Source of the DNA: Aureliella helgolandensis | GTDB lineage: Bacteria > Planctomycetota > Planctomycetia > Pirellulales > Pirellulaceae | Assembly (NCBI RefSeq): GCF_007752135.1 | Contig: NZ_CP036298.1 | Location: 1,612,001-1,676,000 of the forward strand | Direction of reading: 5' to 3' | Length of the DNA: 64,000 nucleotides | Part shown: one piece after another, positions 28,424 through 46,951 of the stretch | How the letters are laid out: each line of letters opens with the position of its first letter | How positions within the stretch are numbered: the first letter of the stretch is position 1 | Translations under genes and position numbers: made by a program | The notes under the pieces: model-generated | Database searches by the model: none | The model's input: only the letters and a program-made list of their open reading frames with translations | What the model was told of the DNA's origin: nothing

Positions 28424-30457
28424 CTACTGCATCATGGAACCACCAGGTAAAGTTGCGTCGAGTCGCTGACCGAGGGTGGGAATGTCGAAGCCGCGTCCCA
28501 AATGGTCCATGCGACGGAAAAACAGGATTTCAGGGATGTCCCCTGCCCCGCTGACAATCGCCTCTATTCTGGAAAAACTTGCACTCCCCTCCAAATATCC
28601 CACGATCTGGGCTTTGAAGACATCTCCCCCACAGGTGATGAGTGGCAGCAAGGCACGCATTTCGTCCATAGTGATTAACCCCTCAACTACCAGCCAAGTT
28701 TCGTAGTTTCGCGTCTCACTGTCGGAACCGTCGGTGCGGGCAATCAGAATCTCGTCGACAATTTCATCGCTGAGCCCCGGTATTCCACGCAAAATTTCAT
28801 GCGGGCAATTCATAATATCGATCCGACCGGGAATCGCCGTCGCATCCACGGTCGTGAGATTTTCCATCAATAGCGGAGTTGAAAAAGCTAGTTCAATTGG
28901 GCCAGATGCAAACGGGGATGTGTAGGTCACCTCATTGTTGCCCTGTGGGAGCGTGATCGTGCCATCGATGACATCCAAGACTTGGTTGAAGGTGACACTC
29001 CCGGCCTGGGTCAGATCGATGGCATCGAAGGCAGCCATCGACCAAGGCTGCGCCTGCCCTTGGTCCGCAGCGTTGAGCTGTTCACCCGCTGCTTGAAGGG
29101 ATCCGAGCTGGCTGCCCAATGCTCCATCTTCGGCAGAGCTGTCGGCGGCGGCCATGCTAGCCAGTGTCACCAAAGGGCTGCTGCCATTGCCTCCCGGCTT
29201 ACCACCAAAGCGATAGGCGACGATAAAACTGGCCCACTCCTCATTTCCCAGGACTTCCACCAACTCTGCGTAGAGTGTTTCGAGATCGTCACCATTGATG
29301 TTGATGCGTGGCAAACCGTACGCATCGACGTTCTTTTCCATGCTGTGCAGCGTTAGGTATTGCGCCCAGCCCAGCGGCGGTGGAGGCGTTGCATTGGGAT
29401 CCATGTTCATAGTGGCGGCCTGCCCGGGCATCGCTCCGGCCATCATGCCATTGTTCATCCGCGTCGTCTCAGCCTGGTCCAAGAAGCCGTTCCGATCCGC
29501 GTCGTAGCCAAACAGCAATTCCGCAGTGACCCCACGTACCAAGAGCAATTGTTCGATGGATTCGATCGGTCCATTGGCGGGTTTGTAGGGTGTTTGAACC
29601 TGCGAGTAGTAGTCGTCGAATTCCGCACCGTAGGGGCGCGGTAGATCGTCCTCGTCGATCCAATCCAGGATGGCATCGGCAATATCTTCGGTCATACCCG
29701 GTAGAGCCAAGAGCATGTTGGTGGCGAAGCTCGATGCGGTCGTGGCGGTTGCTTCGCTGGCTAAGCCGGACAGCAGGTCTTCGGCGCCCGCTTCACTCGC
29801 CAAACCATCCAGTCCTGCGGTATCGCCCCCCGCGAGTTCGCTGGTGGCGCTGGCCGCCAAATCACCACTGGCCGCTAATGAATCCAGCTGCACAAGCGTG
29901 TTGAGGTTGAGCTTGGCCGACTCATTCTGCAGGCCGTAGCGAATTCCGGTGTAGTTGCCCATTTCGTCCAAGGCTGGCGAAATGATGGTGTAGTTGCCGC
30001 GGCGGGCGGCCGCCGTATCGGGAATGACATTGCGTGCGTAGAACAAATCGTTCTCCCAGGTCCCCCCCTGCTCAAGCCGCTCATTCTTGGTGTAGGAGAG
30101 AAATAGCCGGACGGCCTGCGCACCCGATTCGGCGCACATTCGAGCTTGCAATCGCGAACTCGACAATTGAGCCGATTCGTGCGAGTTCAGCATGGACCGA
30201 GAGAAATTCAAGGCGGCCAAGGAGGCCATTACCACGACGATGAGTACCAACAGGAGGATGAAGGCCGGTCGTCGGGGAGCGCGTCTCGGGCGCCAGCTTC
30301 GGCCTCTCAGCGGTGCGGCTCGACTGGGCTGTCGGTGTGTTCCCGATGCCGGTATCGCCCTACCAAAATCACCCGCTGGTGGCTGCCCAAGGTGAACCGT
30401 TGTTCGTTGGCTGGAGCGCGTTGTCAAAGTTGCCTTGGCATTGGTATTCATGATCAT
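28424..30457 (-). CDS. gspK: Type II secretion minor pseudopilin GspK-like, with EF-hand loop
   Basis: Tip pseudopilin, 677 residues, about twice the usual GspK length. An unusually long basic N-terminal leader (about 65 residues) precedes the prepilin site and hydrophobic helix RRPAFILLLVLIVVVMASLA; Glu at +5 is missing, as expected for GspK, and the residue before the cleavage site is Ala rather than Gly. The body has KLNLNTLVQLD, helix-hairpin-helix-like segments (LLALPGMTEDIADAILDWIDEDD, LRGIPGLSDEIVDEILIAR) typical of GspK, and inserted disordered Ala/Gly/Ser regions. A canonical EF-hand loop DADRNGFLDQAE lies at 29468-29503. ATG at 30457 overlaps the gspJ stop (ATGA), implying translational coupling. 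Confidence 0.9.
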   Translation of the reverse strand: MIMNTNAKATLTTRSSQRTTVHLGQPPAGDFGRAIPASGTHRQPSRAAPLRGRSWRPRRAPRRPAFILLLVLIVVVMASLAALNFSRSMLNSHESAQLSSSRLQARMCAESGAQAVRLFLSYTKNERLEQGGTWENDLFYARNVIPDTAAARRGNYTIISPALDEMGNYTGIRYGLQNESAKLNLNTLVQLDSLAASGDLAASATSELAGGDTAGLDGLASEAGAEDLLSGLASEATATTASSFATNMLLALPGMTEDIADAILDWIDEDDLPRPYGAEFDDYYSQVQTPYKPANGPIESIEQLLLVRGVTAELLFGYDADRNGFLDQAETTRMNNGMMAGAMPGQAATMNMDPNATPPPPLGWAQYLTLHSMEKNVDAYGLPRININGDDLETLYAELVEVLGNEEWASFIVAYRFGGKPGGNGSSPLVTLASMAAADSSAEDGALGSQLGSLQAAGEQLNAADQGQAQPWSMAAFDAIDLTQAGSVTFNQVLDVIDGTITLPQGNNEVTYTSPFASGPIELAFSTPLLMENLTTVDATAIPGRIDIMNCPHEILRGIPGLSDEIVDEILIARTDGSDSETRNYETWLVVEGLITMDEMRALLPLITCGGDVFKAQIVGYLEGSASFSRIEAIVSGAGDIPEILFFRRMDHLGRGFDIPTLGQRLDATLPGGSMMQ

Positions 30458-31512
30458 AGCCCCATCGAACTCATCCCCGAGGCCGCGTCCAGAGAGGCGG
30501 TATCGGCTGGTTTCAGTTGTGCTCCAGGAATGGCCACCACCAACTCGTAAATGTTGATTCCATAAGTCTCGCGATCAGTCTGTGTCAGCGTACTGACCGA
30601 AGTCCCAGCGGGTAGAACGGCAGTCTGACTCCCCGATTCCGATTGCATGGCTAGTGTGATTTGAATCAACCAAGGGAGCGATTGGGTGGAGGAGTCCCAT
30701 TCGGTCAGCCATTGAGTGCCGTCGTAGTAGGCGAATTCAAGCATCAACACTTCAGGCGCAACGAGGTCGCCCGTGCGATACAAACTCTGGGTATCTCCCA
30801 TTTCCTCGGCATAGGCGATCACTCCGCGATCGAGTTGCCGTCGGACAAGACCCGATGAAAATCCTTGGCTGAGGCTGGCGGCACTCGCGGATGTAACATC
30901 TCGGGAGAAGTTGGCCATGGCATCGTCGACACCCTGGGCTGTCGCCTCCTGGACGTAGTAGGTTACCGTCTTCATGTCTCCCGGCACGTCAGCGATAATG
31001 CTATCGGTAATCGAAGCCTGTTGGGGAGTGTATTCGTCGGGGCGCGGAATACGGCTCACATCAATCATCAATGAATATTGGTCTCCATAGATGCCTGGTG
31101 GCATGGCCGTTGAAATCGTTGCGCCGAGGGTGTCTGAGTCGCTCGTGACGCTGGTGACAGTGGTCGTGCTTGAGGAGTCGAGGCCTGCAGTACCGCTATC
31201 GAGCTCGGAAGTTTCAGCACCGGTTGTCGTGGCACTTCCGCCACCTGAGGCACCGACGAGCTGCTCCAGGACTGAGGTGTCGTACTCCTGTTCCATCACC
31301 ACGCTGCGGATATCATCCGCCATCATGGTGAGGATGCTCCGCGCCAGTTGCTGGCGGCGAATATCGGCCCCGCGACTGGCGAAATTGCGAGCATACATTT
31401 GCATCAAGCTGCCAATGAGTGCCGTGGCAACGACCACTAACGAGAGGGCGAGCATCAGTTCGACCAGCGTAAAACCACCTCGTCGTATTCTGGGGGAATC
31501 GTTATTGGGCAT
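30454..31512 (-). CDS. gspJ: Type II secretion minor pseudopilin GspJ-like
   Basis: Minor pseudopilin of 352 residues. The start is set at ATG 31512 (MPNNDSPRIRRGGFTLVELM), one base after the gspI stop and preceded by GGGGAGG; the frame remains open upstream but that part is antisense to nothing useful and out of family. RGG|FTLVELMLALSLVVVATALIGSL is a textbook prepilin site with Gly at -1 and Glu at +5. QQLARSILTMMADDIRSVVMEQE is the GspJ-like region after the helix; later EVLMLEFAYYDGTQWLTEWDS matches the GspJ body. A Thr/Ser-rich insertion lies at about 95-150. It assembles with GspK, GspI and GspH at the pseudopilus tip. Confidence 0.88.
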   Translation of the reverse strand: MPNNDSPRIRRGGFTLVELMLALSLVVVATALIGSLMQMYARNFASRGADIRRQQLARSILTMMADDIRSVVMEQEYDTSVLEQLVGASGGGSATTTGAETSELDSGTAGLDSSSTTTVTSVTSDSDTLGATISTAMPPGIYGDQYSLMIDVSRIPRPDEYTPQQASITDSIIADVPGDMKTVTYYVQEATAQGVDDAMANFSRDVTSASAASLSQGFSSGLVRRQLDRGVIAYAEEMGDTQSLYRTGDLVAPEVLMLEFAYYDGTQWLTEWDSSTQSLPWLIQITLAMQSESGSQTAVLPAGTSVSTLTQTDRETYGINIYELVVAIPGAQLKPADTASLDAASGMSSMGL

Positions 31513-31513
31513 C

Positions 31514-32143
31514 TTAGTTACCTCCCCGCCCACCGGCTGTGGCGGCACCAGCTGCGGAGGAAGTGCCGCTCGTCGCAGAACTGCCCGCACTGGCTGCGTT
31601 GCTCGAGCTGGCTGCACTGCTCGAGCTGCTCGAAGAAGAGCTGCTCATCTCCTCCTCGAGTTCTTCTTCGGGAGGAGTGTCGAGTCCTAGGGTGGGATCG
31701 ATCATCCAGCGATTGACGGACAGGTCATAGGAGGACTCGTTAAAACCTCCGCTATTCGGATCGGCATACTGTACGGCAACTTGAATTCCCACCATTCCCG
31801 TGACTTCACTGGGAACGCTGAGGATTTGGTACATCCACCCCTGTTGCGCGGCGAGTGACATGCCGCTTGGGGAAAGGTAATCGGTCCAAGTCACTGGCTG
31901 CGCTGGAATGACGCCCGCGATCACTTGGTTCATGACACTCTCAGCGACCATTTCGGCTTGAGTGATTCTTTGTGCCTTGAGGGCGTTCTGTGTGGCGATC
32001 CGCATTCCCTGGGAAATATAGGCCGATGCAATCGCCAAGATGGTCAATGCCAGTACGACTTCCAAGAGCGACAAGCCGCTGCGTGGAGCGGTAGAATCGC
32101 TCGTAGCCGAGCGTCGCTGGAAAGAGGTTGAGACGTTGCGCAT
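31514..32143 (-). CDS. gspI: Type II secretion minor pseudopilin GspI-like, Ser-rich tail
   Basis: A 209-residue protein with a prepilin site SG|LSLLEVVLALTILAIASAYI, followed by the GspI-typical stretch ALKAQRITQAEMVAESVMNQVIAG. The pilin body ends at about residue 160; the last 45 residues are almost only Ser, Ala, Gly and Thr with a run of ten serines, probably disordered. The tail is encoded by a repetitive stretch at 31520-31650. It starts 51 bases after the gspH stop and its stop is one base from the gspJ start. Confidence 0.85.
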   Translation of the reverse strand: MRNVSTSFQRRSATSDSTAPRSGLSLLEVVLALTILAIASAYISQGMRIATQNALKAQRITQAEMVAESVMNQVIAGVIPAQPVTWTDYLSPSGMSLAAQQGWMYQILSVPSEVTGMVGIQVAVQYADPNSGGFNESSYDLSVNRWMIDPTLGLDTPPEEELEEEMSSSSSSSSSSAASSSNAASAGSSATSGTSSAAGAATAGGRGGN

Positions 32144-32194: not shown

Positions 32195-32875
32195 TCACTG
32201 CGCTTCATCTCCAGAAGCGACGTTGGAGACCTCGATGGATCGAGTGTGGCCGGTCAAACCTCGCATTTGGACCGCCTTCACATCGCCGCGACTGTTCTTG
32301 ATCTGCACTTCGGCGGTGCTGGTGCTGCCATCAGCATAGAAGATTACCCTCTGTCCGATGTTGCTCGTGTTAAGGTCGTTCACGCCACTGCCGCCGGAGA
32401 GCGACTCCTGCGTTATCGAATAGGCACGCATGTCACCGACGACCAGGCATTGAACGAAGGTAATCGTTTCTTCGAGTGTTTCACCTTGGAATTCTTCCGT
32501 GTCGGCACTCGTCATAAAACCGTTGTCTTGCGTTTCGACCAATGCTCCGCCACTGAGTAGCGTAGCGCCCGTACCCGCGGTGGTCGTGTCGGCTTGGAGA
32601 ACAAGTGGTTTGACACTGAAGTTCCCAGTTCCCGGCTCGCACTCGAAGACTTGGTTTTGGCCGGTCCGCATGGCTTCCAAGCGAGCTTGGTCCCACCGCA
32701 AGCGGAGTGCATCGGTGGCACCCCGCAGTTTGCTGCGTTCCCACATGGCTCCCAGGGAGGGAGTCACTATGGCCCCGATCGCGGCGATAATCGCTAGCAC
32801 AAGCATCAACTCAAGCAGCGTGAACCCTGAACGTTGGGTACGCTGCGAAGCACGGGTTGGAGTCGATGCGATCAT
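32195..32875 (-). CDS. gspH: Type II secretion minor pseudopilin GspH-like
   Basis: A 226-residue pseudopilin with the site RSG|FTLLELMLVLAIIAAIGAIV (Gly -1, Glu +5). The hydrophobic helix is followed by PSLGAMWERSKLRGATDALRLRWDQARLEAMRTGQNQVFE, the usual GspH helix and first strand, and by IGQRVIFYADGSTSTAEVQIKNSRG, matching the conserved C-terminal GspH signature in which a predicted polypeptide strand contains F-x-x-DG. It begins 12 bases after the gspG stop, so is almost certainly cotranscribed. Confidence 0.88.
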   Translation of the reverse strand: MIASTPTRASQRTQRSGFTLLELMLVLAIIAAIGAIVTPSLGAMWERSKLRGATDALRLRWDQARLEAMRTGQNQVFECEPGTGNFSVKPLVLQADTTTAGTGATLLSGGALVETQDNGFMTSADTEEFQGETLEETITFVQCLVVGDMRAYSITQESLSGGSGVNDLNTSNIGQRVIFYADGSTSTAEVQIKNSRGDVKAVQMRGLTGHTRSIEVSNVASGDEAQ

Positions 32876-32887
32876 GGTCCTGGAGGC

Positions 32888-33310
32888 CTAACTTTCGATG
32901 TCATCTTCGGTACCGCTTTGTCCGTCGGGGCCCATTGATTTCAACTCATAGGTGGCACCGTCGGAGGTGTATTCGTACTCATGACCCCAAGGATCTGGTT
33001 TGATCGGTTCCTTGGATTGTTGGAACCACTTGCTCTCATCTGCCAAGTCGGATGGTTTTTCATACAGGGCATCGAGACTCTGTGGGTACGAGAAGGCTTC
33101 CAGTTTGTAGGAATCGAGCAGGACTTCGTAATTGTCCATCTGCGCCTTGGCCGCCTTGGTTAACGCTCGAGTTTGAAAACCACCGATATTGACCACTGCA
33201 ATGCCTGCGATGGCAGCGATGATCACCAACACCAGCATGACTTCGAGCAACGTAAAGGCACTGCGACGGCCAGAGCGTCGAGCTGACGAGTGACTTAGTT
33301 TGCGTGGCAT
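32888..33310 (-). CDS. gspG: Type II secretion major pseudopilin GspG
   Basis: Main subunit of the pseudopilus, 140 residues. ATG 33310 is chosen because GGAGAGA lies six bases upstream and the leader MPRKLSHSSARRSGRRSA fits a prepilin leader; the frame is open further upstream. Helix FTLLEVMLVLVIIAAIAGIAV has Glu at +5. The body KAAKAQMDNYEVLLDSYKLEAFSYPQSLDAL, KPDPWGHEYEY and the C terminus SMGPDGQSGTEDDI are the GspG calcium-site signature. The residue before cleavage is Ala instead of the near-universal Gly. Located between gspF (80 bases upstream) and gspH. Confidence 0.95.
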   Translation of the reverse strand: MPRKLSHSSARRSGRRSAFTLLEVMLVLVIIAAIAGIAVVNIGGFQTRALTKAAKAQMDNYEVLLDSYKLEAFSYPQSLDALYEKPSDLADESKWFQQSKEPIKPDPWGHEYEYTSDGATYELKSMGPDGQSGTEDDIES

Positions 33311-33389
33311 GATTCTCTCCATAACAAAATTCAATCTTTCAGTGCCCAAGCGGGGTTGCGATTGCGATGAACTCTTCGCAGGCAACTCT

Positions 33390-34589
33390 TTAAACCGCGC
33401 CGGAGCTGTTAAGTAGCGGCACCATGAGTGCCAAAACAATAAAAAACACGACGCCAGCCATGAGGAGCAACATCATCGGCTCCAACAAGCGGACGAGCAT
33501 GTCCATCCTGCGGAAGGTTGTTCGTTCCAGGCTGTCGGATATTTGTATCATAACTCGATCGAGCGAATTGGATTCCTCCGCCACCGAGATCATTTCCACC
33601 ACTTGATTGGGAAAATGCCCTGAGGCAGCTAGGGGAGTCGCTAGTTTTTCTCCTGCGGTGATATTCTCGCTGGCCTTTTTAATCGAGGCTGACAGGATGC
33701 GATTTCCGGCTGCGGCCCGACTAATTTCCAACGAACGCAAGATGGGGACACCGTTGTTCAACAAGGTGCCCAGGACGCGGCAAAAGCGGGCGACAGCCAA
33801 GCTCAGGAAGATCGAGCCAAACAGCGGAAACTTGATCTTCGCCCAATCCAACCAATACTTTCCCTTGTCCGTCCGCAAAAAGCTAACGGCGCTAAACAAG
33901 CCGATGCAGATGGTGGCAATCAGCAACCACCAATAGTTTTGCAGGAACGCACTAAAGGCCAGGAGCATGTCGGTTGCGGCGGGGAGTTGTCCCTTCTCGC
34001 GCAAGGTTGCGAAAAGGGGCTCAAACTTGGGGACGAAAAAGATAATCAAGACCGTGACCACCGCCGTTCCCACGCATCCCAAAAAGACGGGATAGGCCAA
34101 GGCGCCTGCGGCCCGCCCCTTCATGTCTTCCTGTTGTTCGGTAAAGGCGGCGACTCGTTCCAAGGCATCTTCGAGGAAGCCGCCTTCAGTGCCAGCCCGC
34201 ACCATGTTGACTGCCATGTCATTGAACACGCGAGGAAAACGCGCCATGGCGACTGGGAGCGGTTCTCCCTCCTCGACCTTGGACTTGATTTCCACCAAGA
34301 CCGCTTTGAGAGCCGGCTTACTCGCCTGACTGCTCATGACCGTGAGGGCCCGCATCAACGGAACACCGCTGCGGAGCAGGGAGGCAAGCTGATTGTACGC
34401 ATTGGCCATCACTTGCCCGCTCACCCGCTTGGAACGCGCGTCACCGGATCCCTTGGCTGGCGTGATCTCGACCGGCATTAACGACATGCCATCCAACATG
34501 CTCAACACATCGCGTTGGCTGTTGGCGGTGAGGACTCCTGTTTTGCGCTGCCCGCGCATGTCGCGAGCCACGTAGGCATAGTCAGGCAT
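33390..34589 (-). CDS. gspF: Type II secretion inner-membrane platform protein GspF
   Basis: Polytopic membrane protein, 399 residues, the normal GspF length. Two homologous T2SF domains are visible: the first contains LASLLRSGVPLMRALTVM and EGEPLPVAMARFPRVFNDMAVNMVRAGTEGGFLEDALERVA, the second VARFCRVLGTLLNNGVPILRSLEISRAAAGN and ASGHFPNQVVEMISVAEESNSLDRVMIQIS. Three transmembrane segments follow the expected pattern (about 170-195, 215-240 and 370-395). GspF couples GspE to pseudopilus growth. The gene starts 197 bases after gspE. Confidence 0.96.
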   Translation of the reverse strand: MPDYAYVARDMRGQRKTGVLTANSQRDVLSMLDGMSLMPVEITPAKGSGDARSKRVSGQVMANAYNQLASLLRSGVPLMRALTVMSSQASKPALKAVLVEIKSKVEEGEPLPVAMARFPRVFNDMAVNMVRAGTEGGFLEDALERVAAFTEQQEDMKGRAAGALAYPVFLGCVGTAVVTVLIIFFVPKFEPLFATLREKGQLPAATDMLLAFSAFLQNYWWLLIATICIGLFSAVSFLRTDKGKYWLDWAKIKFPLFGSIFLSLAVARFCRVLGTLLNNGVPILRSLEISRAAAGNRILSASIKKASENITAGEKLATPLAASGHFPNQVVEMISVAEESNSLDRVMIQISDSLERTTFRRMDMLVRLLEPMMLLLMAGVVFFIVLALMVPLLNSSGAV

Positions 34590-34786: not shown

Positions 34787-36493
34787 TTAGCTCAATCGGT
34801 CTCCCTTGGTGACTCGCAAGACCTCTTCAACGCTGGTGCGACCCTCGATGGCTTTGTCCCAGGCATCCATTCGCAAGGTTCTCATGCCAGCCTTCAAAGC
34901 GGCTTGCTTGATGTCCCAAGTGCTCACTCGCTCGTGCGCTAATGCTTTGATATCTTCGTTGGTGACCAGCAATTCATAAATCCCCATTCGGCCGGTATAG
35001 CCGACATTGCGGCAGGTTCGACAACCGGCATGGTGGTACATCGGCTGACCAGCCAGTTTGTCCCAGGGGAAGTCATCGGGGAGGTCTTCTTGGGAAGGGG
35101 TATACGCTACTTTGCAGGCAGGGCATAGGCGTCGTAAAAGTCGCTGTGCCATGATGCCTTCCACGGTACTCGAAACCAAAAATGGCTCAATCCCCATATC
35201 GACAATCCGAGTGAAGGCACCCGCCGCATCGTTGGTGTGAAGGGTACTGAAAACCAAGTGACCGGTCAGCGAAGCTTGAATGGCGTTCTCCGCAGTTTCT
35301 TGATCTCGAATTTCTCCCACCAGCACCACATCGGGGTCATGCCGCAAGATGCTCCGCAGCGATGCCGCAAACGTGAGGCCAATCTTGCTGTGCACCTGAA
35401 TCTGATTGATCCCATCCAGCTGATATTCGACAGGATCCTCGGTTGTAATAATCTTATTCTCAGGGCTGCGGATTTCCAGCAGTGAGCTGTACAGCGTGGT
35501 GGTTTTTCCAGACCCGGTCGGACCGGTTACCAGCACGATTCCGTGCGGCAAGCGAATTAGCTGGCTGAATAATCGGTGGGTGTAGGGGTCCATTCCCAAG
35601 CCCTGCAAGTCAAACTTCATGGCCCCCTTGTCGAGAATACGCATGACCAAGCTTTCGCCGTGAATCATGGGAATGACGGACAAGCGAATGTCGATCTCGC
35701 GGCCGTGGACTTTGAGCTTAATACGCCCGTCCTGAGGAAGGCGTTTCTCCGCGATATTCAATTTGGCCATGATCTTCAAACGGCTGATAATTGCCGCTTG
35801 AAAGCGATTGATCTCGGGCGGAACGGGTTGGTCTCCTAGGATGCCGTCAATCCGGTAGCGAACCTTGATCCCCGAAGCTTGCGATTCAATGTGCACGTCA
35901 CTAGAACGCGAATCGACCGCTTCAACCAGGATTTCGTTCACCAGTCGGACCACCGAGGCTTCCTGAGCCATTTCGCTCAGTTCGCTGCCGTCGGTTTCGA
36001 GATCTTCCAACAACTGGATCTCGCCATCCTCTTCGCGAGCTGCCATTAGCCCTTCGACCGTCTCCGAACCGACCCCCAAGTGCTTCTTCATCAGTCGCGC
36101 GATTTCCGCCCGCTCGGCGACGACTGGCACGATGGTCAGGCCGGTTGCAGCGCTGGCTTCGTCAATTGCATAGACGTCAAGCGGATCAGCGGTAGCCAGC
36201 GTGAGTGAGTCGTCGTTGCGGCTCAGGGGGAATAACGCGTGTCGGTAGATCAGCTTCTGAGGGAAGGTTTTGAGCAGTTCCAGGTCGACTTCGGCGTTGC
36301 GAAGGTCGACGAAATCCATTCCCAACTCTTCACCCAAGGCGCGCAGGGCTGGCTCTTCCTCGCACATGCCTTGCGTAATTGCCGAATTGATCAATTCCCC
36401 AGCTCCGACCGCTTGTGCACGCAACTGCCCGAGTTGCTCGCTGTCCAGCAGGCCGCGTTTAAAGAGGATTTCACCAGCTTCGAGCATTACCAT
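34787..36493 (-). CDS. gspE: Type II secretion assembly ATPase GspE
   Basis: Hexameric cytoplasmic ATPase that drives pseudopilus assembly; 568 residues. The N-terminal domain (about 1-150, EAGEILFKRGLLDSEQL...GMDFVDLRN) is of the MshEN/GspE type that in some homologues binds c-di-GMP. Residues about 180 on form the ATPase: VVRLVNEILVEAVDSRSSDVHIE, Walker A GPTGSGKTTT (about 323-332), Asp box ITTEDPVEYQLDGINQIQVH, Walker B LRHDPDVVLVGEIRDQETAENAI and His box LTGHLVFSTLHTNDA. A four-Cys zinc site (CPAC...CRTC) lies near the C terminus, as in true GspE. Two ATGs, 36493 and 36487, are possible. It is 492 bases from gspD. Confidence 0.97.
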   Translation of the reverse strand: MVMLEAGEILFKRGLLDSEQLGQLRAQAVGAGELINSAITQGMCEEEPALRALGEELGMDFVDLRNAEVDLELLKTFPQKLIYRHALFPLSRNDDSLTLATADPLDVYAIDEASAATGLTIVPVVAERAEIARLMKKHLGVGSETVEGLMAAREEDGEIQLLEDLETDGSELSEMAQEASVVRLVNEILVEAVDSRSSDVHIESQASGIKVRYRIDGILGDQPVPPEINRFQAAIISRLKIMAKLNIAEKRLPQDGRIKLKVHGREIDIRLSVIPMIHGESLVMRILDKGAMKFDLQGLGMDPYTHRLFSQLIRLPHGIVLVTGPTGSGKTTTLYSSLLEIRSPENKIITTEDPVEYQLDGINQIQVHSKIGLTFAASLRSILRHDPDVVLVGEIRDQETAENAIQASLTGHLVFSTLHTNDAAGAFTRIVDMGIEPFLVSSTVEGIMAQRLLRRLCPACKVAYTPSQEDLPDDFPWDKLAGQPMYHHAGCRTCRNVGYTGRMGIYELLVTNEDIKALAHERVSTWDIKQAALKAGMRTLRMDAWDKAIEGRTSVEEVLRVTKGDRLS

Positions 36494-36985: not shown

Positions 36986-39900
36986 TTAGCGGCCTCCACC
37001 GCCTCCACCGCCCCGTCCGCCGCGGTCTCCACCGCCACCACCGCCGCCGCCGCGTCCGCCGCGGTCGCCGCCACCGCCGCCGCCGCCGCCAAATCCACCG
37101 CGTGAACGCATGGCTTCAAAGAAAGCGGCTCTGCGCGCTTGCGTGGCGGCATCATCGCTCGATCCGCCCCCCCCGGAGGTCGCCTCTGGAGTGGAGGCGG
37201 TAGTCGTACTGCCAGCAGCGGTTACGTTTGCTTGAACGCTTGGTCCCATGATGCGTGCGATACTGGATTGGAACACGGTTCCGCTGATCACGCCATCGAG
37301 TGTGGCGTACCCCAGCCCTTCCTCTTCAGCGGCACCCGCCTCATCGAGCAACGCGACCAAATTCCTCAGCTCTTGGATTTGGGCCGGTTGGGCGATGACC
37401 AGTAGCATATTGGTCTTCGTATCGGCGCTCAAGGAGATTTTGGCTTCGGCCAGCGAAGAGGAGCTTCCTCCGCCTCCTCCGCCTCCACCGCCGCGACCGC
37501 CTCGACCACCACCCCGCAGGGCCTCAATGATGGCCGCCGGATCGGGTTGTCCACCGCCACCTCCGCCACGCGAACTGCCACCTCCGACACCCTCGATGCG
37601 GTCACCGTACAATCCCTTGATCATGTTCAATACTTGGGTGACATCCTGGGTGACGACCGGAATCATGGCAACTTGGCCCCGCGTTTCGATCGAAAAGGGG
37701 CTCTCCACTTGATCGATCACTGTCAGCAATTGTTCGATCATCATCATGTCCCCGGGACTTGCTTTGACGATCAGGCAGTTGAGTCTTGGATCGGCGGTAA
37801 TGGAATAGTCTCCACTGGCAATCCCACTCGAGCTGGAACCGAGCAAGTCGTCGCCCCCGCCTCCCAGCAGGGCACCGAACATGCCGCCGCCCATCATTGC
37901 CCCGGCCATATCGCCGAGCAGTCCGCCGCCTCCACCGGAGGTTGACGCGGTTCCACTCAAGATTGTTTCTAGTAGCTCTTTGGCGGAAGCGGCTTTGATG
38001 TTGGAAAGGTAGATGACCGTTGGCTCTCCAGTGCTCATCGCAGCTTGATCTGCCAGTAATTGCAGTAGCTTGTCGAACTCCGCCAATGCCTCTTTGTCTT
38101 CTGAGGCCACGATTAAACCGCCGGGCCCTTCCATGATCGTAATGGGGCTTCCCTTGCCAGGCCGAGCTGGCTTGGCGGTAGCGGCGGTAGCGGCGGTAGC
38201 ATCTGCCACGGCGTCATCGGAAGCTGTTGCTTCGGCAGTCGCCTCTGCCGTTTGCTGAACGAAGGTGAGTCGTCCGGCAGGGATGGATTGCGAATTATGA
38301 GCGGAAGCCGAGCTAGCGGACGCCGCGGACTGCGAATCTGGCGCGGAATCCTCATCTCGCTCCGTAGCGCGGCGCGCTTGCGGAGTGGTGGCTCCTGGAG
38401 TTGACGTCGGAGCAAAGGAACGCTGCGGTAGCAGTGGGCCACGGCCGTCGGCTGCTGGAGGAGCAACGACACGTATGGGATTCACGTCTCCCTTGCGAGT
38501 CTTCCAAAGCAATTCCAGTTGTTCGAGGGTTTGCTGTGCGTTGCGACCGCTCAAGCCTGGGTAGGTCTTGATGGTGTCACCAAACAAATCGCTCGTGGCG
38601 GCATTCGACTCAAGCGTCTTCAGGAGTTCCTTGATCTGTGCAACCTGGGTGGATGAGCCCTTGACCCAAACTTGGCGTTGCAGCAGGTCGCCGTCAATCA
38701 CCGGTGCGCCGCTGGCAGCATCGGCGGTGTCGGTCAACCCAAAGAACTTCTTAATAGCGGCAATTGCCATTTGAGTGTCGAGTCGGTCCAATTGAATCAC
38801 TTGGAAGTCTGAGCTCTCGCCCGCTAGTTCCTGCAGGGTTTTGCCCACCAAATCATGTTCGGAAGGACGGGCTTGCAGGATTAGCTGATTGGACACCGCG
38901 TTCTGTGCGAGTCGCACGTCGGGGGAGCCTGCCAGCATTTGCGATACAATTTCGTAAGCGGTCTGCAATTCGATTCCGACCACTTGATGCCGCTGCAGCA
39001 CGGGGACTTCGGTGGTACCACTAATCGACTCGTCGGCGTCGGGCATCAGGTCCATCCGCGTTACCAAATCCTTCAGGATCTGAATCTTCGCCGGTTCGCC
39101 CTTGGAGTAAATCGTTGTGCCGAAGGTGTTGATCGAGATGCTGATTTCGTCACTAACGTTAATGCCTTCTTCGAGCCCCAGCAGTGGTCGAGCTACCGAT
39201 AGGATTTCTTCGGCATTGATGTGTTTCAAGTCCCAACTCTGAACCGCTGAGCCGCGCGAGGAAGTGGGATCCTCGGCACGTTCAATCAACGCGGCGATGG
39301 CGCGAACGTTGCCTGCCATGTCGGTTACGATCAATTGCCCTGAGGTTGGTAGGCTGACCACTTTGCCTTGCAAACTGATCAATTGTTCAACATCCGCTTT
39401 GACATCTTCCGGATTGAGTCGCTCCAGGGTGAACATGAACTTGACTGGTTCGAAATGCCCGCGTCGTTGCAGTTCATCACGGTCGACATAGTCGGCGATT
39501 TCCGAGATGAACTCGCCGGCCTTGTCTTGATCCTGCTCGAAATCAACGCATCGCAGCATTCTACCTTGACGCATTAGAGTGTGTCCGGTGTTCAGCAGAG
39601 CCGCATTCATGATGTCCATTGCTTCGGTCACACTATAGTCTCGCGAGCGATCCCGGAAGCTGAAGGAACCAGGCGGGATCGTGTCGTTCTGTACGGAGAA
39701 GTCCCCCTGTTCAGCGAGCCATGCGATAACGTCGCTCCAAGGGACACCGCGGAAATTCATCTGCAAACGGATTTCGTCGACGGGCAATTCGGAATTGTCC
39801 AGTACTCGCGTCTCTCCCATCGCATCGCTAGGAGAGTTGGCAGCGACAGCGGAAGCTTGAACCTCAGCGGCCCGCTCGGGCGGCGTGGGCTCTCCGACTT

Positions 39901-40465
39901 CATTGCGAGCCACTTGCCCAGCCATGACCTGCCATTCGGCCCACTGAGAATCGGACAGTTCTTGACGAATGGCACGCTGCGCCTCATCGCGCACACGATC
40001 GGCCGCCGGGGTGCGCCGCGCCGCCTTAACCCTTTCCGTCCAGTCACCGATAACCTCCTTTTGGAGCTCGTCTAAATTGAGTGCCTGTGCCACCTCGGGA
40101 GCATCGAGCGACAGCATGCCCCGCCATTCGATGCGATACTTTGCTAGCTTGGCTTGCTGCTCTGGATTGAGCAGCTCAAAGGCTAGCTTCTCCGATTCGG
40201 CACCAAAATCAGCACGCAGCGTATCCTGCTGAGCTAGTGGAGCCTCTCTCAAAGCTTGCCCCAACCCAATCGCAGCGCTCATGCGACTCCGTCGCAATTG
40301 CTGCAGTTGCTCTTGCTGTGCTTCTGTCAGCTCAAGCTTCTCAGCCGATTCGGGTTTGAGCATTTCGCCCAAGACGCCAAGGTAGTCCTGAGCCTCCACC
40401 AGAGTGTCGCCTGAGAAGGTCAGTACAAGCAGCAGAAGTAGAAAAGTTCGAATACGGAGTAGCAT
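36986..40465 (-). CDS. Secretin N-domain protein in the GspD position, no visible secretin barrel
   Basis: First gene of the T2SS-like cluster, 1,159 residues from ATG 40465 (an in-frame TTG lies six bases upstream). A signal peptide (LLRIRTFLLLLLVLTFSGDTLVEAQ) is followed by an LTxxQ/CpxP-like helical domain (KLELTEAQQEQLQQLRRSRM, ELLNPEQQAKLAKY). Several secretin N-domains follow (LQMNFRGVPWSDVIAWLAEQGDFSV, then FTLERLNPEDVKADVEQLISLQGKVVSLPTSGQLIVTD, and two or three further N1-like repeats such as IYLSNIKAASAKELLETIL and IPVVTQDVTQVLNMIKGLYG). The C-terminal secretin motif (V-P-x-L-G-D-I-P type) and barrel strands are missing; instead the protein ends with Gly/Arg-rich repeats. It is probably periplasmic; channel formation is doubtful. 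Confidence 0.82.
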   Translation of the reverse strand: MLLRIRTFLLLLLVLTFSGDTLVEAQDYLGVLGEMLKPESAEKLELTEAQQEQLQQLRRSRMSAAIGLGQALREAPLAQQDTLRADFGAESEKLAFELLNPEQQAKLAKYRIEWRGMLSLDAPEVAQALNLDELQKEVIGDWTERVKAARRTPAADRVRDEAQRAIRQELSDSQWAEWQVMAGQVARNEVGEPTPPERAAEVQASAVAANSPSDAMGETRVLDNSELPVDEIRLQMNFRGVPWSDVIAWLAEQGDFSVQNDTIPPGSFSFRDRSRDYSVTEAMDIMNAALLNTGHTLMRQGRMLRCVDFEQDQDKAGEFISEIADYVDRDELQRRGHFEPVKFMFTLERLNPEDVKADVEQLISLQGKVVSLPTSGQLIVTDMAGNVRAIAALIERAEDPTSSRGSAVQSWDLKHINAEEILSVARPLLGLEEGINVSDEISISINTFGTTIYSKGEPAKIQILKDLVTRMDLMPDADESISGTTEVPVLQRHQVVGIELQTAYEIVSQMLAGSPDVRLAQNAVSNQLILQARPSEHDLVGKTLQELAGESSDFQVIQLDRLDTQMAIAAIKKFFGLTDTADAASGAPVIDGDLLQRQVWVKGSSTQVAQIKELLKTLESNAATSDLFGDTIKTYPGLSGRNAQQTLEQLELLWKTRKGDVNPIRVVAPPAADGRGPLLPQRSFAPTSTPGATTPQARRATERDEDSAPDSQSAASASSASAHNSQSIPAGRLTFVQQTAEATAEATASDDAVADATAATAATAKPARPGKGSPITIMEGPGGLIVASEDKEALAEFDKLLQLLADQAAMSTGEPTVIYLSNIKAASAKELLETILSGTASTSGGGGGLLGDMAGAMMGGGMFGALLGGGGDDLLGSSSSGIASGDYSITADPRLNCLIVKASPGDMMMIEQLLTVIDQVESPFSIETRGQVAMIPVVTQDVTQVLNMIKGLYGDRIEGVGGGSSRGGGGGGQPDPAAIIEALRGGGRGGRGGGGGGGGGSSSSLAEAKISLSADTKTNMLLVIAQPAQIQELRNLVALLDEAGAAEEEGLGYATLDGVISGTVFQSSIARIMGPSVQANVTAAGSTTTASTPEATSGGGGSSDDAATQARRAAFFEAMRSRGGFGGGGGGGGDRGGRGGGGGGGGDRGGRGGGGGGGR
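36989..37095. repeat. Gly-rich tandem repeat at the 3' end of the secretin-like gene
   Basis: The last 35 or so codons repeat a 39-base unit encoding eight glycines then DRGGR, twice plus a partial third. It gives an RGG-like tail. A related Gly/Arg run is encoded at about 37470-37520. Such GC-rich repeats are prone to length change by slippage. Confidence 0.8.
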
Positions 40466-42053: not shown

Positions 42054-42232
42054 CGGGATTGCTTGCGCGGGTAGGCTACGGCAGCTCTGTGCCGCATGGC
42101 ATGGTCTCGGCCAGGGTGTGGCAATTCTGTTGGCAGCTTGCTGCTCCCTCCCCAGCTCGCCCGGCTATCGGAGCCCTGTCTCTAGTGCGCTAGGCCTCTC
42201 GTGTGCTACGACCAGGGGAGGCTGCGGCAGCA

Positions 42233-42252
42233 CAGGTTGATTTTTCAACCTG
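42233..42252. terminator. Hairpin that may end the ATP-grasp transcript
   Basis: CAGGTTGA-TTTT-TCAACCTG, a perfect 8-bp stem with a four-T loop, about 180 bases past the ATP-grasp stop. It is not followed by a T-run, so intrinsic termination is uncertain. Confidence 0.35.
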
Positions 42253-42436
42253 CTAAATACACACGGGGAACTCCCCTAATCCACGGGTACGTGAGCGCGC
42301 CCCACAATCGCAGTTTCCAATTGAGCAGGTTGAGGTGTGGTACAATTGAGAGTTTGCCTTGCTGCCGGCGCGGTCGAGTGCGCGAACGTTGGTTCCACGA
42401 GCAATTATTATCACGATGCAGGCGAAGAGTTGGCGA

Positions 42437-42444
42437 AGGAGGAA
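42437..42444 (+). promoter_or_regulatory. Ribosome-binding site fixing the GTG start at 42450
   Basis: AAGGAGGA lies five bases before GTG 42450. This decides the start of the DUF1549/DUF1553 gene, whose frame is open about 250 bases further upstream, and places its signal peptide at the very N terminus. Confidence 0.75.
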
Positions 42445-42449
42445 TTGGT

Positions 42450-45400
42450 GTGAGCACGAGTGCCTATACAACCTTTTTATCAGTGGCGTTGTGTTTCCTC
42501 ACGATCTCTTGCGCCTGTTCATCGGAGGGAACAACGTCGAAAGTTTCCCAGGAGGAATTCTTTCGCGAGCGGGTGGCACCAATCCTTCAGCGGCGCTGTT
42601 TGAGCTGCCACAACCATGCTGAGCGCAAGGGCGATTTTTCTCTACAGTCGTTCGCCACGTTGCTTGAGAGCTCGTTTTTAGAGCCTGGTGACGCCGCAGC
42701 CAGCCACTTGATGGAGGTTATCGCTCCGTCGGCCGGGGCGCCTGAGATGCCCAAGGACTCCGATCCACTGACCGAGCAGCAAATCACAGACATTCGGACA
42801 TGGATTGACGCTGGAGCTGTATGGCCTAGCGAGTTTGAATTGGAGCCCCTAACCATCGAGGATTACGATTGGTGGTCCTACCAACCGGTCGTCGCCCCAG
42901 CCGTACCTCGCACGTCGGCCCCCTGGGGACGTACGGTAGTGGATCAATTCATCCTCAAATCGCTCAAGCAACAGGGACTAGCACCGAGCCCTGAAGCGGA
43001 TCGGCGGACTCTGATCCGACGGCTCACATTTGATTTGGTGGGGTTGCCTCCTTCACCCGCGGAGGTGGAGGAATTCGTTAACGATCCCGATCCGCTGGCC
43101 TACGAGGCCCTCGTTGACCGTTTGTTGGAATCGGAGCGTTACGGTGAGCGCTGGGCACGACATTGGTTGGACGTTGTCAAATACGCCGATACTTGTGGGT
43201 ACGATAAAGACAAGCTGCGACCCAATGCTTGGCCCTACCGAGATTACGTCATTCGCTCTTTCAATGAAGATAAGCCGTATGGGCGGTTCGTGCAGGAGCA
43301 AATTGCCGGCGATGCGCTTTTCCCGGGCACCGCCGATGGAATTTTAGGGTTGGGATTCATTGCTGCAGGACCTTGGGACTTTATCGGCCATGTGGAAGTT
43401 CCCGAGTCTAAAATTGACGGGCAAGTAGCGCGAAATCTCGATCGCGATGACATGGTATCGAACGTCTTCAACACCTTCTGCAGTGTCACCATTCAATGTG
43501 CGCGATGCCACAACCATAAATTCGATCCCATTACTCAAGAAGATTACTACGGCCTGCAAGCGATGTTTGCGGCGGTCGACCGAGCCGATCGTCCCTACGA
43601 TCTTGACCCCAGTGTTGAACGGCAGCGGCAGGAATTGGTCGCTCAGCAGCGGCAACTCAAGCAGAGTTTGCAGCAGCTCGAACAGGAGATGGCCAGCGCA
43701 GGGGGGCAACCGCTGCTTGATCTCAAGCACGAGATCGAACAATCGCACAAGAGCTTGAATCTCGAAAAGCAGCCCGCGTTCGGGTACCACAGCCAACTGG
43801 TTCAACAACCTTCCACGGAGAAGTGGATCGAGTTGCAATGCGAAACCGTCCAAGAGATTGGCACCGTAGTGCTGCATCCCTGCCACGACGACTATGCCTC
43901 CATCGGTGCGGGGTTTGGCTTTCCCATCCGTTTCAAGTTGGAAGCGGCGCGGGAGGACGGGGAGTGGCAACTACTGTTTGATCACACACAAGAGGATTTT
44001 TCGAATCCTGGACTCACGGAATTGAAGGTCGCTGTGGGGCATTGCCAAACCGATCGAATCCGTCTGACGGCAACGAAGCTGGCCGAACGCAAAGGCGATT
44101 TCTTTTTAGCGATGGCAGAGATCGAATTGTTGAACTCTAGCGGTCGATCGGTGTCGGTTGGAGCGGTGCAAGCGCTGGATTCGATTGAAGCGGCTCCCCG
44201 CTGGGCAGCTGACAATGTCCTGGATGGCGTTTGGCCAATGTATAGCGATCCCCGCGGGGCTCAGCGACTGTCGCAGGCGATGCAGGAGCGAGATGCGTTG
44301 TTGCGTGCGATAGAAACACCGGAACGCATCGCTCAGCGAACTGCTTGGCTAGCCGATCTGCAGCGCGTCGATCGCAAGTTGTCAGCCTTGCCTGCCGGTA
44401 AAATGGTATATGCGGCAGCGACGCATTTCTCGCCCCAAGGCAATTTCAAACCGACCAATGGCAAGCCAAGGCAAGTCCATGTGCTGCATCGCGGAAACGT
44501 GCAGCAACCACTGCAGGTTGCCACCCCTCGCGTCCTGAAGCTGAATTCGGGTGAGGACACGCCGTCGAACTTGGAATTGGATTCCGTGGAGGAGGAGGCG
44601 CAGCGTCGCGTTGCACTCGCCCAATGGTTGACGCGCCCCGATCATCCGCTGGTGTGGCGCTCGATCGTGAATCGCGTTTGGCAATATCATTTTGGTGAAG
44701 GCCTGGTTGCAACGCCGAACGATTTTGGCCGCATGGGGGCCCGGCCCACCCATCCCAAACTTCTCGACTGGCTCGCAGCCGACTTTCGCGACCATGGACA
44801 ATCATTCAAACGCCTGCACCGGTTGCTCGTCACCAGCAGTGTGTATCGCCAGTCCTCTCAAGGGGACGTAACGCAGGAAGCCATCGATGGAGGGAATCAG
44901 TACTGGTGGCGAATGAATCGCCGGAGATTGGCAGCGGAGGAGGTTCGCGATTCGATTCTATCGGTTAGCGGAGCTTTGAATCTCGAGATGGGAGGTCCTG
45001 GATTTTACCTGTTTGAATTGGAAAAGCCGGAGCACTCACCCCACTTCGAGTACCACAAATTTGATCCGGCCACGTCGGCTAGCCATCGCCGCAGCATCTA
45101 CCGATTCGTCGTGCGTTCGCAGCCCGATCCCTGGATGACTACCCTGGACTGTGCCGATTCGTCGCAAAGCACTCCACGTCGCACGGAAACCCTCACGTCG
45201 CTGCAAGCCCTCTCGCTGCTAAACAATCCCTTCAATCTGCACATGGCAGAGCAGTTTGCGGAGCGTGTGGGAGGCCGTACCGCTGGCGATTCGTCTGCGT
45301 CCACTCAGCCGAGCGATTCGCAGTTTGCGGAGCCCGCCGAACAATTGCAGGGGCAGGTCGAGCAGGCGTTTCGCTTAGTGACCCAACGACAGCCAAGTGA

Positions 45401-45500
45401 ATCAGAGTTGTCGGAGATGACGCACTACGCGGCCGAGCACGGTTTAGCGAATCTGTGCCGTATGTTGTTCAACTTGCATGAGTTCGTTTTCTTAGATTGA
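42450..45500 (+). CDS. Exported cytochrome-c-like protein with DUF1549 and DUF1553 (pair 1)
   Basis: A 1,016-residue planctomycete-type protein. An N-terminal export signal (TTFLSVALCFLTISCAC, possibly a lipoprotein) precedes a PSCyt1 haem domain with CLSCH at residues 50-54. DUF1549 follows ([87 protein letters not shown]) and then a beta-rich insert resembling a discoidin/F5-8C domain (about 440-570). DUF1553 closes the protein (PLVWRSIVNRVWQYHFGEGLVATPNDFGRMG...LTSLQALSLLNNPF...LFNLHEFVFLD). Function is unknown; such genes are nearly always followed by DUF1501 genes, as here, and are frequent near sulfatases. Confidence 0.93.
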   Translation: MSTSAYTTFLSVALCFLTISCACSSEGTTSKVSQEEFFRERVAPILQRRCLSCHNHAERKGDFSLQSFATLLESSFLEPGDAAASHLMEVIAPSAGAPEMPKDSDPLTEQQITDIRTWIDAGAVWPSEFELEPLTIEDYDWWSYQPVVAPAVPRTSAPWGRTVVDQFILKSLKQQGLAPSPEADRRTLIRRLTFDLVGLPPSPAEVEEFVNDPDPLAYEALVDRLLESERYGERWARHWLDVVKYADTCGYDKDKLRPNAWPYRDYVIRSFNEDKPYGRFVQEQIAGDALFPGTADGILGLGFIAAGPWDFIGHVEVPESKIDGQVARNLDRDDMVSNVFNTFCSVTIQCARCHNHKFDPITQEDYYGLQAMFAAVDRADRPYDLDPSVERQRQELVAQQRQLKQSLQQLEQEMASAGGQPLLDLKHEIEQSHKSLNLEKQPAFGYHSQLVQQPSTEKWIELQCETVQEIGTVVLHPCHDDYASIGAGFGFPIRFKLEAAREDGEWQLLFDHTQEDFSNPGLTELKVAVGHCQTDRIRLTATKLAERKGDFFLAMAEIELLNSSGRSVSVGAVQALDSIEAAPRWAADNVLDGVWPMYSDPRGAQRLSQAMQERDALLRAIETPERIAQRTAWLADLQRVDRKLSALPAGKMVYAAATHFSPQGNFKPTNGKPRQVHVLHRGNVQQPLQVATPRVLKLNSGEDTPSNLELDSVEEEAQRRVALAQWLTRPDHPLVWRSIVNRVWQYHFGEGLVATPNDFGRMGARPTHPKLLDWLAADFRDHGQSFKRLHRLLVTSSVYRQSSQGDVTQEAIDGGNQYWWRMNRRRLAAEEVRDSILSVSGALNLEMGGPGFYLFELEKPEHSPHFEYHKFDPATSASHRRSIYRFVVRSQPDPWMTTLDCADSSQSTPRRTETLTSLQALSLLNNPFNLHMAEQFAERVGGRTAGDSSASTQPSDSQFAEPAEQLQGQVEQAFRLVTQRQPSESELSEMTHYAAEHGLANLCRMLFNLHEFVFLD

Positions 45501-45511
45501 GTTTCGTAAGC

Positions 45512-46951
45512 ATGTTTGACCGCCGACAATTTCTTTCCGATTGCGGTGCCGGCTTGGGTGGCCTGGCGCTGTCGACGATGTTGCATCAAGCCGCTGAGGG
45601 GGCAGGTGCAGTCAAAGTACTTCATCACCCCCCTAAAGCTCGGCGAGTCGTGCAGCTGTTTATGGCGGGTGGCGCAAGTCACATGGACTTGTGGGATCAC
45701 AAGCCGATGCTCGAGAAACACCATGGCGAAGAAGCCGATTTTGGTGAGCCGGTGGAAGCCTTCCAAGACGGCTTAGGACCTTGGATGAAGTCCCCGTTTG
45801 CCTTCGCCCCCTATGGGCAAGCGGGGAAGATGCTGAGCGAAGTCGTGCAACCGCTGGGAGCTTGCGTAGACGACATCGCCTTCATTCACAATATGGTCAG
45901 TACGACTGGGGTCCATTCCCAGGCAACGTACTTGCAGGCCACCGGATTTCAGTTGCCGGGGTTCCCCGGTATGGGCTCCTGGGTAAGTTACGGGCTTGGA
46001 GCGATTACCGACAACTTGCCGACGTTCGTCGTCTTGCCTGATCATCGTGGGTTTGCCAGCAATGGTCCGAAGAACTGGGCGTCGGCGTTCCTGCCTGCCA
46101 GCGCGCAGGGGACAGCTATTTTTCCGCAGCGTGAAAACGCCATCGAAGATCTGCAGGCGCGGGCCGATTTCGTGACCGAACAAGGCGACCGGGCTGGCTT
46201 GTCCTTGCTCAAACGCCTTAACTCGCAATATTCGGCTCAACGCGCCGAGGATTCACGACTGGACGCACGCATCCGCTCCTACGAACTGGCGGCCCGGCTG
46301 CAATTGAGTGCTCCCGAGGCGCTCGACCTCTCCCAGGAACCGGCGCATGTCATGAAAATGTACGGACTCGACCGCCTGGGTGCCACTTACCCCTCCGAGA
46401 TCAATCCAGCCGAAGAGGCCGAGTACTTTGGACGCAAGTGTTTGATCGCGCGGCGTCTGCTGGAACGTGGCGTGCGGTTTGTACAGGTCTGGTCGGGGAA
46501 CGACAATAGCTTCCCCCGCCGCAATTGGGATAGCCATGAAGACATCGCTCGCGATCACGGGCCGCTAGCGCGGGGTATGGCTGTGGGGGCAGCAGCCTTA
46601 TTGAAAGACCTCAAGCAATCGGGAATGTTGGACGACACGATCGTGCTGTGGACCACCGAGTTCGGACGGATGCCCAGTACTCAAGGATCCACGGGGCGTG
46701 ACCACAATCCATTCGTGTTTACCAATTGGCTAAGTGGTGGTGGGATCCAGGGAGGTATCAGCCATGGAGCCTCTGATGTCTGGGGATACAAGCCCCTTGA
46801 TCGAGATAATCCGACGCAAGTGTACGATATTCATGCAACGATTCTGCACTTGCTGGGAATTGACCACCGTCGATTGACCGTGCGAAACAATGGCATCGAC
46901 CGCCGCCTGACCGACGTTCATGGGCATGTGATCCATCAAATCCTGGCTTAA
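45512..46951 (+). CDS. DUF1501 protein with Tat signal (pair 1)
   Basis: A 479-residue protein of the DUF1501 family, which has an alkaline-phosphatase/sulfatase-like fold. The N terminus MFDRRQFLSDCGAGLGGLAL is a Tat signal, so the folded protein is exported. Motifs include [100 protein letters not shown] and the C terminus RLTDVHGHVIHQIL. ATG 45512 is 11 bases after the stop of the DUF1549/1553 gene; a TTG at 45497 would overlap that stop. The two are surely cotranscribed. Substrate unknown. Confidence 0.94.
   Translation: MFDRRQFLSDCGAGLGGLALSTMLHQAAEGAGAVKVLHHPPKARRVVQLFMAGGASHMDLWDHKPMLEKHHGEEADFGEPVEAFQDGLGPWMKSPFAFAPYGQAGKMLSEVVQPLGACVDDIAFIHNMVSTTGVHSQATYLQATGFQLPGFPGMGSWVSYGLGAITDNLPTFVVLPDHRGFASNGPKNWASAFLPASAQGTAIFPQRENAIEDLQARADFVTEQGDRAGLSLLKRLNSQYSAQRAEDSRLDARIRSYELAARLQLSAPEALDLSQEPAHVMKMYGLDRLGATYPSEINPAEEAEYFGRKCLIARRLLERGVRFVQVWSGNDNSFPRRNWDSHEDIARDHGPLARGMAVGAAALLKDLKQSGMLDDTIVLWTTEFGRMPSTQGSTGRDHNPFVFTNWLSGGGIQGGISHGASDVWGYKPLDRDNPTQVYDIHATILHLLGIDHRRLTVRNNGIDRRLTDVHGHVIHQILA

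Follow-up and report, generated by a model that had tools for sequence, protein, structure and literature searches.

The stretch analyzed here (the window) comprised 64,000 nucleotides of the planctomycete Aureliella helgolandensis (assembly GCF_007752135.1, contig NZ_CP036298.1, positions 1,612,001 to 1,676,000 of the forward strand). On its minus strand, an operon-like run of genes in the order D'-gspE-gspF-gspG-gspH-gspI-gspJ-gspK-PilM/L-M, extending from 36986 down to 25215, encoded a type II secretion system (T2SS). The first gene of this run, D' (36986–40465, minus strand, ATG start), encoded a secretin N-domain protein without a barrel. The earlier note on this DNA had placed a 1,159-residue protein in the position of gspD, and the open reading frame proved to be real and to head the T2SS operon.

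Pfam matched the Secretin_N family (PF03958) to the 1,159-amino-acid (aa) D' in five stretches at 1.5e-39; the score of 134.5 bits exceeded the cut-off of 28.2 and assigned D' to that family. The secretin barrel family PF00263 gave no Pfam match in D' at E ≤ 1 and, in a six-frame scan of the whole genome, no match at the D' locus at E ≤ 10; D' was accordingly not classed as a secretin. The GspD equivalog model TIGR02517 scored 111.8 bits on D', below its curated cut-off of 351.35. In the AlphaFold2 model, for which 30 orthologs were used, a helical region (residues 30–182) was followed by an N0 domain (230–310) and then, as far as residue 1043, by approximately seven N-type domains, the last three of which held long low-confidence inserts. 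Two short helices, one of them at residues 1105–1122, and a disordered tail followed. Since no strand was predicted beyond residue 1025, the model shows no C-terminal barrel; as a positive control, the same method drew the barrel strands of a separate 1,196-aa secretin of this genome. On the DNA, the helical domain (residues 30–187, supported by AlphaFold2 helices, motifs and our own hidden Markov model (HMM)) corresponded to 39905–40378, the N0 domain to 39536–39778, the N1-type ring-building domains (residues 340–1043) to 37337–39448 and the Gly/Arg-rich tail (residues 1123–1159) to 36989–37099, all on the minus strand.

Foldseek searches with the D' model returned PulD (6hcg being the best match), XcpQ and GspD as the best matches, and these supported the ring-building domains along with Pfam and AlphaFold2. 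Superposition with VIA-align, which covered mostly residues 229–551, placed residues 231–309 on the N0 domain of GspD (4jtm) from enterotoxigenic Escherichia coli (ETEC) with a Z score of 10.9 over 78 of 81 residues and a root mean square deviation of 2.0 Å, so the domain could be identified as a GspD-type N0; our own N0 HMM agreed. Thus, the several secretin N-domains, the missing barrel signature and the Gly/Arg-rich tail described in the earlier note were all borne out. The LTxxQ/CpxP label given there to the N-terminal domain is based on the motifs LTEAQ, LNPEQ and LSDSQ, read from the helical region, to which Pfam assigned no model; our own HMM found the domain in most aligned orthologs, and three lacked it. 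A stand-alone protein resembling this helical domain was observed directly before gspE in several relatives (L134:4053-4976, L150:13158-13961, L155:12969-13916 and L175:399-1187). The Gly/Arg tail, Arg-rich and Lys-poor, was kept in nearly all of the 30 orthologs; as a guess, it could bind acidic envelope surfaces. The barrel-less form was conserved in 30/30 aligned orthologs, so the absence of a barrel reflects neither chance nor a frameshift, and in many relatives the D' ortholog was the gene directly preceding gspE on the 5' side.

The complete genome, a single 8.44-Mb contig, encoded four PF00263 proteins above cut-off. The likely partner of D' was the 1,196-aa secretin at 6,510,765–6,514,355, which contained five Pfam Secretin_N stretches and a barrel, with barrel strands at residues 779–1051 in its AlphaFold2 model. 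An iterated HMM search counted eight N-type domains in this protein and detected no N0, and Foldseek matched its model to structures of GspD and PulD with values of about 1e-25 or better. Among the remaining barrel secretins, a 610-aa protein adjoined PilB/PilC-like genes and a 584-aa protein adjoined a TadZ-like gene; an orphan of 1,147 aa at about 1.82 Mb (L010:5978-9421) had a barrel but lacked a Pfam match to Secretin_N, and its surroundings showed no noticeable pilus genes. These three were set aside as partners; among the relatives examined, none had a link to the GspK cluster. The genome also encoded three more Secretin_N proteins without a barrel, of 856, 682 and 386 aa, two of them with an N0, at 4,541,600–4,544,200 (L136), 450,200–452,300 (L138) and 6,377,900–6,379,100 (L139), and a fourth further Secretin_N match lay in a 494-aa frame at 4,554,672.

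Gene order in relatives connected D' with the barrel secretin. In five genomes of the order (G015, G016, G037, G048 and G053), D' and the barrel ortholog shared a cluster around E-F-G-H-I-J-K-L-M, the barrel gene following or adjoining K, PilM/L and M, and at least eight related clusters had the barrel ortholog at the cluster end, after K-L-M. A second, paralogous T2SS cluster in G018, G021 and G025 likewise ran from a giant D' through to a barrel secretin. Other arrangements were also seen: the barrel gene with the core and D' apart (G032, G042, G059), D' with the core and the barrel gene apart (the window's genome and its genus mates), and D' about 1.7 kb from the barrel gene with the core apart (G055). 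A genus-level alignment scan of the genome contigs matched close relatives only. Across 60 related genomes, 47 contained both proteins, 9 neither, and 2 and 2 only one of them (Fisher p=1.9e-7, uncorrected for shared ancestry); 8 of the 9 genomes with neither also had no GspK. The suggestion in the earlier note that the pore is encoded elsewhere is supported, as the genome has four barrel secretins and the orthologs of one of them end the operon of relatives.

The domain contents of the two proteins were reciprocal. Our own HMMs detected the N0 in each of 30 D' and in none of 30 partners, and the barrel in each of the 30 partners and in none of the 30 D'. Because these very protein sets had served to build the models, the positives arise partly by construction and the absences are informative. 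The shortest D' ortholog, of 990 aa, had four counted N-domains, and the longest, of 3,749 aa, had 34. The giants of the second system measured 2,070–3,749 aa with 13–34 N-domains (L161+L162 in G021, L163+L164 in G018, L171+L172 in G025) and occurred with barrel partners, and complete giants of 2,070, 2,433, 2,603 and 2,608 aa were barrel-less too. A barrel fused to D' was sought in distant orthologs, and none had one, the complete giant D' included. D' is not a degenerate GspD; it is a protein in its own right, with an N0 and N-domains, which is conserved and co-occurs with the barrel protein. In a second planctomycete family (f21), the cluster ran D'-E-...-M-secretin, and the secretin there combined a barrel with an N0 of its own. 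The simplest history would be that an extra N0-bearing, barrel-less copy was present in an ancestor of both families and that the barrel protein later lost its N0 in the window's order. In a tree of 51 N0 domains, D' of both families grouped loosely, the domain being too short to settle a duplication from a barrel secretin.

The remaining genes of the operon all lay on the minus strand. They encoded a GspE-like ATPase (34787–36493; Pfam T2SSE plus MshEN, 1.3e-133), a GspF-like platform protein (33390–34589; T2SSF, 1.9e-57) and a GspG-like major pseudopilin with an uncertain start codon (32888–33439; T2SSG, 3.2e-18; TIGR01710, 4e-23). The minor pseudopilins were GspH-like (32195–32875; XpsH, 3e-10; GspH, 3e-8), GspI-like (31514–32143; GspI, 2.6e-6), GspJ-like (30454–31617; N_methyl, 2e-4; T2SSJ, 0.0012; GspJ, 2e-4) and GspK-like (28424–30457; T2SSK_1st, 7.4e-16). 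The matches of the H, I and J pseudopilins fell under the curated cut-offs; their order was canonical and prepilin motifs were present. The core families T2SSE, T2SSF, T2SSG and T2SSK_1st all exceeded their Pfam cut-offs, as expected of a T2SS. A PilM/GspL-like platform protein (26537–28339; Amuc_1101 PilM-like, 1.6e-6; PilM, 1.4e-4) was followed by a putative GspM/PilO-like platform protein (25215–26414), which was assigned from its conserved position after PilM/L in relatives, had one N-terminal hydrophobic helix plus a coiled coil as read from its sequence, and matched no family above cut-off in profile searches. A search of the complete genome for GspC (T2SSC, PF11356) found nothing at E ≤ 1; the model does match in the E. 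coli control. The window operon contained no outer-membrane secretin, and this component could be accounted for by the barrel secretin at 6.51 Mb, the ortholog of which lies within the operon of relatives. The neighborhood of the operon also encoded a planctomycete PSCyt1/PSCyt2/PSD1 protein and, after it, a DUF1501 protein (42201–46951, plus strand), as well as an IS4-family transposase (47111–48487, minus strand).

Based on these results, the secretin function of this T2SS-type machine is probably divided between D' and the 1,196-aa barrel secretin. The channel appears to consist of two proteins, D' lining the periplasmic space and the partner providing the hole in the outer membrane, because relatives place a separate barrel protein in the same machine. 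Within one system, the N-domains and the barrel are encoded by different genes that are inherited together, as expected for a split secretin. In the canonical T2SS, it is the N0 that points to the inner-membrane platform, where it binds GspC (PMC9239104). Since the genome has no T2SSC match and the only N0 detected in the system is that of D', D' was placed on the platform side. According to this model, D' would oligomerize into a stack of periplasmic rings, the N0 ring of which would meet the inner-membrane platform; at its opposite end, the stack would join the barrel secretin at the lower rings of the latter. Through the combined D'-secretin tube, folded cargo would be pushed by the pseudopilus.

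Several observations weigh against such a division. Whereas the domain contents, the operon position, the clusters shared in relatives and the co-occurrence were observed, ring formation by D' and its contact with the partner are steps that we infer, and the D' model had a low overall predicted template modeling score (pTM 0.30) and does not fix the arrangement of the domains relative to one another. The partner gene lies 4.9 Mb from the window, so the pairing with D' rests on relatives. The Fisher test ignores shared ancestry, and D' matches were weak in some order-level genomes and may include paralogs. Five genomes (G019, G046, G001, G030 and G058) had GspK and only one or neither of the two proteins; some of these assemblies are incomplete, not clearly all, and a few single absences may stem from their draft state. 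Moreover, in the f21 family a barrel secretin with its own N0 coexists with D', so the pore of that family would not have to rely on D' for its completion.

The last point would also suit a different role, in which D' is an accessory periplasmic assembly, targeting or anchoring factor of the GspB, GspC or TsaP kind, whose N0 and N-domains would touch the barrel secretin and whose basic tail and helical domain would reach peptidoglycan or lipid. GspB and GspC of the T2SS bind the secretin N0 (PMC9239104), the genome gave no GspC match, and the helical N-terminal domain and Arg/Gly tail were not seen in the barrel partners, all of which would be consistent with such a factor. However, the 7 to 34 tandem ring-building domains far exceed what docking would need, and in the window's order the N0 remains only in D'; this role, the main rival of the divided secretin, was regarded as rather unlikely, yet worth serious consideration.

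The separation of the D' or barrel gene from the core operon in several lineages could also indicate that the two proteins serve the same machine as alternative, not joined, structures, for example with D' acting in a periplasmic pseudopilus-only function under other conditions. The shared clusters in several lineages and in the second paralogous system, together with the joint absence of both proteins, make this improbable. The earlier note had also considered a pilus-like or periplasmic machine of a wall-less envelope working without an outer-membrane pore, as the window operon itself has no barrel. This idea found no support and is not needed, because the cluster of relatives includes a barrel secretin that is present in this genome too, and a pore-less machine seems very improbable. 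Least probable, to the point of being negligible, is that D' is a truncated, non-functional secretin remnant: it has no pore and stands in the gspD position, but its architecture, gene position and tail were shared by 30 orthologs, the most distant of which had about 28% identity.

The divided secretin proposed here can be compared with known systems. With the GspD-type T2SS (PulD, XcpQ, ETEC GspD) it shares the E, F and G–K order and families and the N0 and N1-type folds; it differs in having the N0 and the barrel on separate proteins, many more N-domains, no T2SSC match, a PilM-like L, and the extra helical domain and Gly/Arg tail of D'. The mitochondrial split secretin (GspD/GspDL plus GspDN1-3; PMC8134430) also keeps Secretin_N domains apart from the barrel, and a yeast two-hybrid interaction has been reported between its parts (PMC8134430). 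That system, however, belongs to protists and has short single N-domains, a truncated barrel and no N0, whereas the present one is bacterial, with long tandem N-domains and an N0. PilQ of Thermus thermophilus has a similarly extended periplasmic stack of N-rings (N0–N5), but with rings and barrel on one polypeptide (PMC5745081). KilC of the Myxococcus Tad-like Kil system is likewise reported as a barrel secretin without N0, though it is short, and no separate N0/N-domain protein is described in the text consulted (PMC8460266). DotD, to which the D' N0 could be matched with VIA-align, and Xanthomonas VirB7 of type IV secretion have the N0 fold without a barrel; these are small proteins of another machine and have no tandem ring domains. 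A partial literature search retrieved no report of a bacterial secretin split in this manner, nor of any secretin whose N-domains number more than 40, and a partial search on planctomycete, giant or split secretins gave no description of the D'/barrel arrangement.

In other classes of Planctomycetota, the cluster ended in a single giant secretin after the PilM/L and M genes, and no D' was seen among the loci read. Two of these giants, of 4,848 aa (L140:2650-17196) and 4,213 aa (L141:7096-19737), each carried an N0 and one barrel, with 41 and 42 Pfam Secretin_N stretches, respectively. Similar open frames of 2,100–5,000 aa were noted in several other genomes. The six-ring PilQ of Thermus is 35 nm long (PMC5745081), and an enlarged periplasmic space is described for members of the phylum (PMC11958385). 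Ring number may set the length of the channel. It is conceivable, as a tentative proposal, that the T2SS channel consists of two stacked tubes, of which the lower, formed by D', varies in length with its ring domains (about 4 to 34) and so adapts to an enlarged and variable periplasm, and that the other classes use one giant secretin with more than 40 ring domains instead.

Annotation by the barrel domain would label these operons as lacking a pore, and a split secretin would explain why. If true, the arrangement would be a bacterial counterpart to the mitochondrial split GspD. For a T2SS that has to span the wide envelope of planctomycetes, a bipartite secretin, with widely varying ring stacks among related systems and giant single-chain secretins in sister classes, would, if true, make the link between ring number and channel length testable.
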